From the IMG/VR virus record IMGVR_UViG_3300042691_006466, positions 1 to 59,870 of that record: DNA of 59,870 bases, one strand, 5' to 3'. Below the pieces are notes generated by a model. It did not search any database, was not told the DNA's origin, and saw only the letters and a list, made by a program, of their open reading frames with translations. Position numbers and translations under genes: made by a program. Source of the DNA: a virus. Shown piece after piece: positions 28,063 to 30,630 of the stretch (position 1 is the first letter of the stretch; every line of letters begins with the position of its first letter).

Positions 28063-28764
28063 GATGTTTCCTTTGGTTAATTGATGCACGCTTTGCATCG
28101 AAATGACACCTCATTGAAGTGTCATGACGCTACATTAGCCCCTGCCAATCCACGCCCCTCCTAGCCATTCCCGGCGTGTCCAAGCCACTTGGTGTTGCCA
28201 CCGAGATGAACCCTCAATGAAGACTCATAACGCTGTTAACAGCCCTTGTTTTACCCAGAATTTCCATGCCCGACCCCGCCCCGCCGCACCGTGGCAGGCC
28301 AGTCCAAATGGTGTTGCCACCGGGTAGCCACCTTTGCAAGTGACTAACCACTGTTAACAGCCCATGCCCCAGCCTTCCACACCCCTCCTAGCCGTGCCGC
28401 TGCCAGCCCTTCCATTTTGGTGTTGCCACCGAAATCACCTCTCATGGAAAAGTGATCCCGCTGTTAACAGCCCTCGCCGTGCCTTTGCCGACCGAGCCTG
28501 ACCGCACTGCTCCGAGCCACAACCACGCCACTTTGGTGTTGCCACCGAAAAGCACTCTGTAAAAAATGCTTCCCGCTGTTAACAGCCCATACCAGTCCCC
28601 GCCTCTCCTCGCCGTGCCGAGCCTTTCCCGACCGTGCCGTCCGATTGGTGTTGCCACCGAAATGACCTTTCATTGAAAAGCCATGACGCTGTAAACAGCC
28701 CATGCCGTTGACTACCAAGCCCGACCTAGCCTAATCCGGCCCCGCAGATACATCAGGTAGGTTG
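28063..28764 (-). ncRNA. Leftward structured leader RNA
   Basis: From the predicted start (about 28764) to the RAMP-like ATG, about 700 nt without a credible gene. In the leftward transcript each of six units folds as a GCUG...CAGC hairpin, a 9-10-bp stem (8 in one unit) with a short loop, and, in five of them, a GGUG-GCAA-CACC hairpin with a GNRA tetraloop. G:U pairs in the stems would be A:C mismatches in a rightward RNA, which fixes the strand. A cis-regulatory leader or a processed RNA is possible; short frames read across it look spurious. Confidence 0.6.
28083..28701 (-). repeat. Six-unit tandem array of structured ~55-bp repeats
   Basis: Units at about 28083-28141 (diverged), 28191-28245, 28310-28363, 28419-28473, 28535-28588 and 28647-28701, period 108-119 bp. 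The five good copies share GGTGTTGCCACC at one edge and GCTGTTAACAGCCC (or near) at the other. The middle differs in sequence but stays self-complementary. In the diverged unit, both edges change in step (GATGCA/TGCATC and GCTA/TAGC), so pairing is preserved. Spacers are C-rich on the plus strand and partly alike. Confidence 0.85.
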
Positions 28765-28845: not shown

Positions 28846-29130
28846 ATGCGACGAGCTGCCCGCCGAGACGCAAATGAACAGGACATCATTAAGGCCATGC
28901 GCGAGGCTGGCGCTTACGTGAAGGTGATCAACGACGAGGGCCTGTTCGACCTGCTGGTGAGCTACCGTGGGGAGACGCTACTGATCGAGGTGAAGGATGG
29001 CGCCAAGCCTCCATCGGCACGCCGGCTCACTGAGGCGGAGCAGAAGTTCCATGACGAGTGGCCGGGAGCAGACCTGTACATCGTGAACAGCGCTGAAGAG
29101 GCGCTTGCGCTGCTCAAAACATGCGGCTAA
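28846..29130 (+). CDS. VRR-NUC domain nuclease
   Basis: 94 residues from the ATG at 28846, with AGGA nine bases upstream. An in-frame TTG at 28762 would extend it over the operator and is less likely. Catalytic pattern of the VRR-NUC branch of PD-(D/E)XK enzymes: E11 in the first helix, D35 in LFDLL, and E48-x-K50 in LLIEVKDG. Stand-alone VRR-NUC proteins from phages act on branched DNA such as Holliday junctions. It diverges from the recombination operon, with which it probably cooperates. Confidence 0.85.
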   Translation: MRRAARRDANEQDIIKAMREAGAYVKVINDEGLFDLLVSYRGETLLIEVKDGAKPPSARRLTEAEQKFHDEWPGADLYIVNSAEEALALLKTCG

Positions 29131-29169: not shown

Positions 29170-29201
29170 AACCCCCACCTTAGACGTGGGGGTTCTTTTC
29201 T
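29170..29201 (+). terminator. Terminator after VRR-NUC gene
   Basis: A perfect 9-bp stem (AACCCCCAC / GTGGGGGTT) with a 7-nt loop and CTTTTCT tail starts 39 bp after the VRR-NUC stop. It isolates that gene from the structured RNA region beyond. Confidence 0.85.
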
Positions 29202-29215
29202 GGGCCATCACGCAT

Positions 29216-29343
29216 GGGGACTAAGAGGCGAGGGGGTGTAGCCGCACTTCTGGAGACTCGCTGAAAGTCGCAAGGCAAACGGACAGGCGCTATGGTCAGC
29301 CAAGAGGAGTCCGGTAAGGGTTCAAATCCCGCCTTAGTCCCCA
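29216..29343 (+). ncRNA. tRNA-like structured element
   Basis: About 128 nt closed by a perfect 10-bp stem (GGGGACTAAG / CTTAGTCCCC) followed by A. A TTCAAAT loop closed by GGG/CCC sits at the T-arm position and fits the tRNA T-loop consensus. Inside are GCGAG/CTCGC and CGGAC/GTCCG stems. The closing stem is 3 bp longer than a tRNA acceptor, and I cannot fit an anticodon arm with U33, so it is not a normal tRNA. It could be a tRNA mimic or the 5' domain of a larger RNA. Confidence 0.5.
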
Positions 29344-29347
29344 GCCG

Positions 29348-29415
29348 TGATGGTTAAGCGACACACCGCCGATAAGGCAACACACCGCAGGATTGGGGGA
29401 GCCCGGTCGCCATCA
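29348..29415 (+). other. Structured segment between tRNA-like element and sRNA promoter
   Basis: TGATG (29349-29353) pairs with CATCA (29411-29415) and GCGAC with GTCGC inside it; a small GCC-GATAA-GGC hairpin lies within. No ORF with a ribosome site is seen. It may belong to the same large RNA as its neighbours. Confidence 0.4.
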
Positions 29416-29420
29416 GCCTC

Positions 29421-29450
29421 TTGCACACTGTTCCCATTTGTTGATATACT
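29421..29450 (+). promoter_or_regulatory. Sigma70-type promoter inside the RNA region
   Basis: TTGCAC (29421-29426), 18-bp spacer, TATACT (29445-29450). Predicted start near 29457. No gene follows within 550 bp, so the product would be a non-coding RNA. Confidence 0.55.
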
Positions 29451-29456
29451 GCGTCC

Positions 29457-29608
29457 ATCAGCGGCTTGGTAACCCGTTGTAGTCCTGTGTAACGCGCCCC
29501 GAACCCTTATTGAAGGAGCGGGCTTCGTCAAAGCTACAGATGTCTGGCACAGCAGCTCTGTATGCGGCAACCAAGCCTAAAGCTCGTATCTTTCAATAAG
29601 GGTTTTTT
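29457..29608 (+). ncRNA. Rod-like RNA ending in a stem and U-run
   Basis: A 13-bp perfect stem (29502-29514 with 29592-29604) encloses nested GAGC/GCTC, GGCTT/AAGCC and TACAGA/TCTGTA pairs, giving a rod of about 100 nt. It ends in TTTTTT, so it can act as a terminator. Upstream GGCTTGGT (29463-29470) can instead pair with ACCAAGCC (29570-29577), which competes with the inner rod: either a pseudoknot or a two-state switch. Confidence 0.55.
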
Positions 29609-29610
29609 GC

Positions 29611-30010
29611 TTTCTGCCTTACCTTGGTCTGAGGGTTTATCGGGAGCCCTGTACTGTTTGTCTCAGACCGAGAGCCACAAAAAGATCGACGTGGCAAGCG
29701 CGGGTGGGGATAGCGCTGATTGTTGAGTAAACCGCCAGAACGGAACCGGGTCGAGAGATTAGGGTGCTCCGGGGCAACGGCAACAATCAGGTCAAGCTTG
29801 GTCAGTGCGCTAAGAAGGGACCTCACAATGGGTCTAAATGTCTGACAGTTGCGGCGGAACATTGAGAGATGACCGCAACCAAAAAGCGACGGAGCGACCG
29901 AAGGGTGATTCCAGCATTTTGATCTTCAGCCAACCTCGCGGTCTGCGGGCTAGGGGTGGGCTGTGTCCGATTGCTCCGTCACTCGGTCCGGGTGATAACC
30001 AGTGTGGGGG
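29611..30010 (+). ncRNA. Multi-stem structured RNA region
   Basis: About 400 nt with no credible gene but many perfect or near-perfect stems: 29623-29633/29662-29672 (11 bp, one G:U valid only on this strand); 29716-29725/29781-29790 (10 bp) inside 29711-29716/29807-29812; 29848-29854/29873-29879 (7 bp); 29888-29895/29973-29980 (8 bp). With the upstream elements it spans about 800 nt. Size, phage setting and tRNA-like neighbour recall the GOLLD and ROOL classes; identity is unproven. Confidence 0.5.
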
Positions 30011-30015
30011 CTGCG

Positions 30016-30630
30016 ATGTTAGACAGAAGTGAAGCGAAGAGAGTGAAGAGTAGTGCGCTGCCTTGGTTCATAACCTCCCGGCTTCGATCTGTGAATCGAG
30101 TGGGGCTGAGTGAAGTGGAGCAAGCCTGCCTAGCGCTAGAGGCTGACGGTATGCCCTGCCCCATGAGCGTGGAGCCTGAGCAATGGGTTCGGGACAACTT
30201 CTCCTACATCTGCTTCAAGTACCACGAGAGGTATCCGCGTCCTGCCGCGAAAACGGCCAAGTTGTCAAAGAAGCAACGTAAGAGCAAACGCCTTGCTGCA
30301 TCAGGCTACGCAAAGACCGCGCACAAACCCTCCCCAAAAAAGCCAATCACTCAAAAGCCTGTTTTGGTGGCCGGCGTAGATGTTGCGTCAGACGCCTTCC
30401 TGTCCACGTTTCAGTGGCGCAGGGTACGCATGGAGGCGCTGAAGAAGTATGGCCCGAGGTGTCAGTGCTGCGGAGCCACTCCCGCTGGCGGGGCGGTGAT
30501 GAACGTAGACCATATCAAGCCACGCAAGAAGTGGCCATCTCTGGCGCTTGACGTGAACAACCTCCAGATTCTTTGCCATGACTGCAACCACGGCAAGGGC
30601 AACTGGGATGACACTGACTGGCGGGCGTAA
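30016..30630 (+). CDS. HNH endonuclease
   Basis: 204 residues from the ATG at 30016, just beyond the structured RNA. The first 100 residues are an unassigned helical region with a Lys-rich linker (KLSKKQRKSKRL). The C-terminal nuclease core reads YGPRCQCCGATP, NVDHIKPRKKWP, NNLQILCHDCNHGKGN: two zinc-binding CxxC knuckles around the HNH motif. May be a homing nuclease beside the RNA, or a packaging-related HNH enzyme. No RuvC segments, so it is not IscB-like. Confidence 0.82.
   Translation: MLDRSEAKRVKSSALPWFITSRLRSVNRVGLSEVEQACLALEADGMPCPMSVEPEQWVRDNFSYICFKYHERYPRPAAKTAKLSKKQRKSKRLAASGYAKTAHKPSPKKPITQKPVLVAGVDVASDAFLSTFQWRRVRMEALKKYGPRCQCCGATPAGGAVMNVDHIKPRKKWPSLALDVNNLQILCHDCNHGKGNWDDTDWRA

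Follow-up and report, generated by a model that had tools for sequence, protein, structure and literature searches.

A two-domain, part-exchanging non-coding RNA unit of environmental phages: a candidate new class of large phage RNA

GOLLD and ROOL are RNA-only assemblies for which a structural or scaffold-like role is supposed, and ROOL is a phage RNA of about 580-660 nt that contains pseudoknots and lies near tRNA islands. Structured phage transcripts of another kind are the lambda pR'-6S RNA-tR' leader and the HK022 put RNA, where a promoter is followed by a structured leader and a terminator-like stem. Large phage RNAs whose role is unknown have been described (PMC12286853; PMC7567579). 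GOLLD combines a conserved 3' region with a variable 5' region; tRNAs lie close to it, and some members carry one within a variable linker (PMC12286853). Phage ICP1 produces an abundant, ORF-free non-coding RNA of ~800 nt of unknown function (PMC7567579). Such large structured RNAs, including the ICP1 transcript, constitute an open puzzle: they are ordered and some of them are abundant.

The RNA unit described here is similar to GOLLD in being a large structured phage RNA, with tRNAs nearby and inside some members, that is built of exchangeable and conserved parts; it differs in that both of its domains occur in several types and in having a kissing-closed U-tract stem between them. It shares with ROOL the phage setting, the pseudoknots and the tRNA neighbourhood, whereas its plan is that of two domains with a terminator-like stem in mid-RNA. 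To our knowledge, that two-domain plan is not a feature of ROOL, and we know of no kissing-closed U-tract stem in mid-RNA among the features of either family. The ICP1 RNA is comparable in being another large ORF-free phage transcript. The lambda and HK022 leaders show the same order of promoter, leader and stem as the unit, but here no dependent long operon was found in the window and a second large structured domain follows. HEARO and omega RNAs, which accompany IscB-type HNH genes, also place a structured RNA beside an HNH gene; in contrast to them, the unit had no Rfam match, its HNH gene is not always present, and Pfam recognised only an HNH domain in the protein of the window.

A sequence-only reading of the locus had proposed a GOLLD/ROOL-class or new large RNA. 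Its second option is the one that we retain, as the models for GOLLD (RF02032) and ROOL (RF03087), run at E<=10 on the window record and on those of nine relatives, matched none of them, although the ROOL result is the weaker negative because a ROOL positive control was also silent; membership of either family was rejected on these searches. No match to HEARO or to the catalytic cores of group I and group II introns was obtained up to E 10, tmRNA was likewise negative, and scans of the window and diverse relatives with Rfam 15 recovered no large-RNA family even at low thresholds. The matches found in relatives were tRNAs and one int-alpA RNA (RF02996, above its cut-off, at L333 5427-5494, on a contig that also carries the RNA unit), the rest being below the family thresholds. 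We found no description of the unit in the open-access literature searched.

Layout of the gene-free interval and limits of the RNA

The window, that is the whole 59,870-base virus record analysed, is a phage genome according to its phrog matches, and TerL relatives include Phage DSL-LC04 (55%) and Pelagibacter phage HTVC027P (49%). All features given below are on its plus strand. A small endonuclease-like gene (phrog_93, E 1.3e-5; 28846-29130), which was the locus marker in many relatives, is followed by its intrinsic terminator at 29170-29200 (AACCCCCAC/GTGGGGGTT, then a T-rich run), and an HNH endonuclease gene occupies 30016-30630 (Pfam PF01844, E 1.4e-9; phrog_144). Between both genes there is a gap of ~880 nt with no credible ORF.

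The claim that about 800 nt of this gap are non-coding and structured was borne out in its substance, with the boundaries revised to 29456 and about 30002. Only 22 of 278 pairwise indels in the downstream domain, C, were multiples of 3, the C core of the window contains stops in all six frames, and the upstream domain, B, is followed by 450-850 nt free of any clear ORF in the majority of 87 distinct loci; as had been stated, no gene explains the region. In the records of two uncultured spring phages (L312 1523-2147, MW202484.1; L311 2347-2778, MW202753.1), hypothetical proteins are annotated over sequence of C, which is probably not coding.

A putative sigma70 promoter is located at 29421-29450, with TTGCAC at 29421-29426, an 18-nt spacer and TATACT at 29445-29450. 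A promoter-like pair of boxes matching at least 9 of 12 positions was found at this place in 60 of 85 relatives, compared with 0.24% of control positions. The RNA probably starts near 29456, and the likely transcript, as predicted from these elements, would extend from there to about 30002 or beyond, reaching ~550 nt or more. A scan for terminators at the 3' ends of C found few: in most cases none separates C from the gene that follows, so that transcripts may reach into it.

Upstream of the promoter lies element A (29205-29353), a long stem with 21-nt arms (29205-29225/29333-29353) and a variable apex, whose flanks recur in relatives. In the window the apex includes GGG-UUCAAAU-CCC (29318-29330), which resembles a T arm, and an acceptor-like end of 7 bp. 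The tRNA-like element that had been placed on the 5' side of the RNA is thus present, although it is separate from the RNA, since the promoter stands between A and B. As the 5' end of the RNA it was dropped for this reason and because relatives keep B and C without A. Neither ARAGORN nor the Rfam tRNA and tmRNA models matched element A. When the element and its downstream flank (29205-29418 in the window) were compared with those of three relatives, the apex was different in L088 and L094, and L091 carried two tandem copies; among these four loci the tRNA-like apex was restricted to the window.

Folding of the two domains

The relatives aligned with three independently conserved pieces identified by blastn and profile searches, namely A, B at ~29440-29610 and C at ~29640-30002. 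From an alignment of 61 sequences with its pair counts, B was delimited to 29456-29608 and is predicted to fold into a 5' hairpin and a long wide-loop stem that contains an inner hairpin and ends in a U-tract. In hairpin 1 (29459-29464/29474-29479, loop UUGGUAAC) all 6 pairs changed on both sides while 100% of the cells remained paired. The terminator-like stem has 16-nt arms (29502-29517/29589-29604) and encloses an inner helix at 29520-29525/29573-29578; it ends in a tract of six U (29603-29608), and the longest U-run after the stem measured at least 5 in 84 of 85 relatives. This stem, running from 29502 to 29608, divides the RNA into two domains, which corrects the earlier layout. RNAalifold, applied to the B alignment, gave 28 pairs, both partners having changed in 16 of them.

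The linker after hairpin 1 pairs with the inner loop of the long stem through a kissing helix, or pseudoknot, of CUGUGU with GCACAG (29485-29490/29547-29552), all 6 pairs of which changed on both sides. A run of at least 5 Watson-Crick pairs was available in 59 of the 61 sequences, and the mean was 6.03 versus 4.03 with partners exchanged. The covariation score of B, kissing helix included, was 0.478 against 0.165 in shuffled alignments, none of 500 scoring as high, and slid helices gave 0.04-0.09. The invariant run GGCAACCAAGCCTAAAG of B was itself the search word, and its invariance should not be over-read; the U-tract and the kissing helices are outside the search words.

Domain C, here of type 1 (29611-30002, ~390 nt), was analysed with an alignment of 12 sequences and pair counts, at ~78% mean column identity. 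Six helices covaried in these 12 sequences: P2 (29674-29678/29691-29695), P3 (29716-29725/29781-29790), a pair of helices at 29802-29805/29842-29845 and 29818-29823/29830-29835, a helix at 29848-29854/29873-29879 and a hairpin at 29935-29939/29945-29949. Four pairs had changed on both sides in P3, and also in the helix beginning at 29848. The six scored 0.407, which none of 500 shuffled alignments (0.210) reached; slid helices again gave 0.04-0.09. Helix P1 (29626-29633/29662-29669) was evaluated separately, sequence by sequence, with a pairing of 8.0 compared with 5.05 (maximum 6.3) when the arms were re-paired.

The stems that the sequence-only reading had marked, among them those with arms of 21 nt in A, 16 nt in B and 10 nt in P3, are where it had put them, and covariation in both domains indicates that the stems of B and C are conserved in relatives. 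Its remark on a G:U pair valid only on the plus strand agrees with the cell counts, G-U exceeding A-C by 147 to 12 in B and by 57 to 2 in C, an asymmetry which implies an RNA read from the plus strand. Taken by itself, the RNA of the window folds moderately better than its shuffles (z -2.16), and the case thus rests on comparison. From this comparison the conclusion holds that the region encodes a conserved, structured, non-coding plus-strand RNA.

Relatives, exchange of parts and tRNA setting

With searches for the HNH protein and the upstream nuclease we gathered 160 IMG/VR loci, many of them on contigs that are fragments. Exact-word scans then placed B in 102 stretches, about 87 distinct B loci being used, and C type 1 in further contigs; for loci collected in this manner, conservation is biased within the words themselves. 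Additional scans revealed four more C types, five in total, with at least 120 stretches in two of these scans; C2 and C3 are represented by samples only. Altogether the unit was present in at least 214 loci distinct by local sequence, a figure obtained with a handful of exact-word scans, and the true number is larger. An exact scan of ~85,000 species genomes with the B core word alone produced 8 matches, none a real homologue, and blastn against named phages, plasmids and E. coli returned short or partial matches only, involving two uncultured spring phages and one HNH gene.

Among the C loci listed with enough upstream sequence, which cover the five C types, a T-run was found at the expected place in 152 of 191, and a stem of at least 8 bp ended at this T-run in 149 of the same 191, compared with 3 in a shuffled control. 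Of those 149 loci, 99.3% (all but one) offered a kissing match with 6 or more Watson-Crick bp, versus ~50% with partners exchanged. Outside B type 1, the matches listed comprised 55 different best-match kissing sequences in 92 loci. The other B domains do not resemble B type 1 in sequence and keep the same plan, a 5' hairpin or linker able to kiss the inside of a wide-loop stem that ends in a U-tract. Unrelated B types precede one and the same C type, and one genomic site hosts different B and C types. Comparison of the sequences of these loci thus shows that B and C each exist in several types that recombine, the order of promoter, kissing-closed U-tract stem and C remaining constant.

The genes 3' of C are unlike each other, as they include HNH genes, a family of ~205-213 aa and others. 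C and HNH occurred together in L002, L003, L004, L005, L006, L041 and L192, whereas C type 1 was found without an HNH relative in L180, L191, L162, L167, L176, L183, L229 and others.

The setting had been likened to that of GOLLD and ROOL, and the phage origin, the pseudoknotted structure and a tRNA-rich upstream region agree with this likeness, whereas element A of the window was not scored as a tRNA. In the same loci, ARAGORN found 21 tRNAs within 1 kb 5' of the unit versus 6 in 1.44 Mb elsewhere, that is 0.107 versus 0.0042 per kb (about 26 times). The 21 upstream tRNAs were all on the strand of the unit, and they belong to only 9 of 198 loci, the window not being among these; examples are L011, L257 and L287 (ARAGORN) and L252 (Rfam tRNA). 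In L461 (912-1263) and in L111, several tRNA genes are clustered directly 5' of the promoter of a unit of the same kind. A tRNA-like module lies inside C in L213 (3327-3442, minus strand) and L290 (1667-1782, plus strand), with an Rfam tRNA score of 33.7 bits (cut-off 29) and a 51-nt insert at the D loop, and L096 carries another element at the corresponding place.

Proposed model and alternative explanations

We consider that the locus most likely carries a self-contained, non-coding phage RNA unit which belongs to a new class of large phage RNA and acts as RNA. In the proposed model, transcription from the sigma70 promoter would begin at 29456 and yield an RNA at least ~550 nt long. B, the 5'-most ~150 nt, would fold as a hairpin plus a long wide-loop stem; the kissing helix, joining the 5' part of B to the inside of the stem, would lock this fold, which ends in the U-tract. 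C, of ~390 nt, would be a second, larger folded domain. The U-tract stem may terminate part of the transcripts, in which case two RNAs would be made, B alone and the longer B-C. The functional product would be the RNA itself, not a leader of the gene downstream, possibly with a structural or scaffold-like role during infection, by analogy with what is supposed for GOLLD and ROOL. What comparison shows, at the level of sequence, is the folds of B and C, the strand, the position of the promoter, the order of the parts and the exchange of B and C types. A point against the model is that C, although its conservation is that of an RNA, would not be transcribed if termination at 29608 were efficient. 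The kissing helix may be intra- or intermolecular, as both fit and covariation cannot distinguish them; an intermolecular contact would be reminiscent of GOLLD and ROOL, which assemble from RNA alone. We also put forward, as a tentative and rather doubtful extension, that this is an uncatalogued, widespread system in which a kissing-controlled wide-loop terminator yields two products of a single promoter, one RNA that is short and locked and one that is long and carries a large interchangeable domain, the kissing setting their ratio or, if intermolecular, driving the assembly of RNA particles.

A different division of labour would make B a stand-alone RNA of ~150 nt with its own terminator and C a cis-acting leader that would regulate the accessory gene downstream by attenuation or at the level of translation. 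It is in line with the U-tract stem that ends every B type, with the absence of a terminator downstream of most C domains before the adjoining gene, and with the HNH start codon being 14 nt 3' of C in the window; but the genes after C are mutually unrelated, C type 1 preceding HNH and other genes, a ~390-nt leader kept at ~78% mean column identity before different genes would be unusual, and no promoter of its own was recognised for C, which makes this explanation unlikely in our judgement. It seems still less probable that B is a termination or antitermination switch for phage transcription, analogous to lambda pR'-6S RNA-tR' or HK022 put, whose kissing sets the read-through. The constant order of promoter, structured ~150-nt leader and terminator-like stem, and the terminator-with-kissing plan kept by unrelated sequences, would suit such a switch, which leaves unexplained the conservation of C as RNA. 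In our reading of the window, B, C and the HNH gene form one plus-strand unit adjoining a block of minus-strand ORFs, so that no long operon depends on the RNA unit and only C and one HNH gene would be under the control of the switch.

The position of the HNH gene directly downstream, and the co-occurrence of C and HNH in seven named loci, could point to the RNA of an HNH-linked mobile element, either a group I or II intron or a guide of the HEARO/omega-RNA type. The intron and HEARO searches at E<=10 were negative, the unit lies outside any gene and begins at a promoter of its own, and the HNH protein of the window, in which Pfam found only HNH, has by our reading no RuvC-like or PLMP part. 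Since C type 1 exists without HNH, C is not an HNH leader, an intron or a guide RNA; all three were rejected on this ground, and we regard an HNH-linked origin as very improbable. We give as little credit to a diverged true GOLLD or ROOL RNA: the phage setting, the size, the tRNA neighbourhood and the tRNA-like module within C of L213 and L290 would all be compatible with it, a tRNA inside the GOLLD linker having been reported (PMC12286853), but neither RF02032 nor RF03087 matched at E<=10 in 10 records (the ROOL control being silent) nor in the Rfam scans of relatives. Finally, the abundance of inverted repeats could reflect untranscribed palindromes of a DNA-level element, such as a replication origin or a packaging or recombination site. 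This is scarcely credible, as the promoter stands at a fixed distance and, unlike in DNA palindromes, G-U is tolerated and A-C rejected (204 versus 14 cells in B and C together).

On the preferred reading, that of a large RNA acting as such, the unit would be another class beside GOLLD, ROOL and the ICP1 transcript, without an Rfam entry and in at least 214 distinct loci. Judging from the sequences collected, this two-part RNA design occurs in at least a few hundred environmental phage sequences and is uncatalogued in Rfam. Its part-swapping plan lends itself to experiment: the promoter is defined, the kissing helix could be disrupted and then restored, and the extent of read-through at the U-tract is measurable.

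Two further observations concern the neighbouring DNA. The HNH proteins (window 30016-30630; L002-L081) have a conserved C-terminal nuclease with 60-80% identity, while their N-terminal part is variable or missing. At 28120-28740 of the window, in the interval from a phrog_4652 gene to the small nuclease gene, there are about 7 copies of a GGTGTTGCCACCGAAAT...GCTGTTAACAGCCC unit spaced ~95 nt apart.
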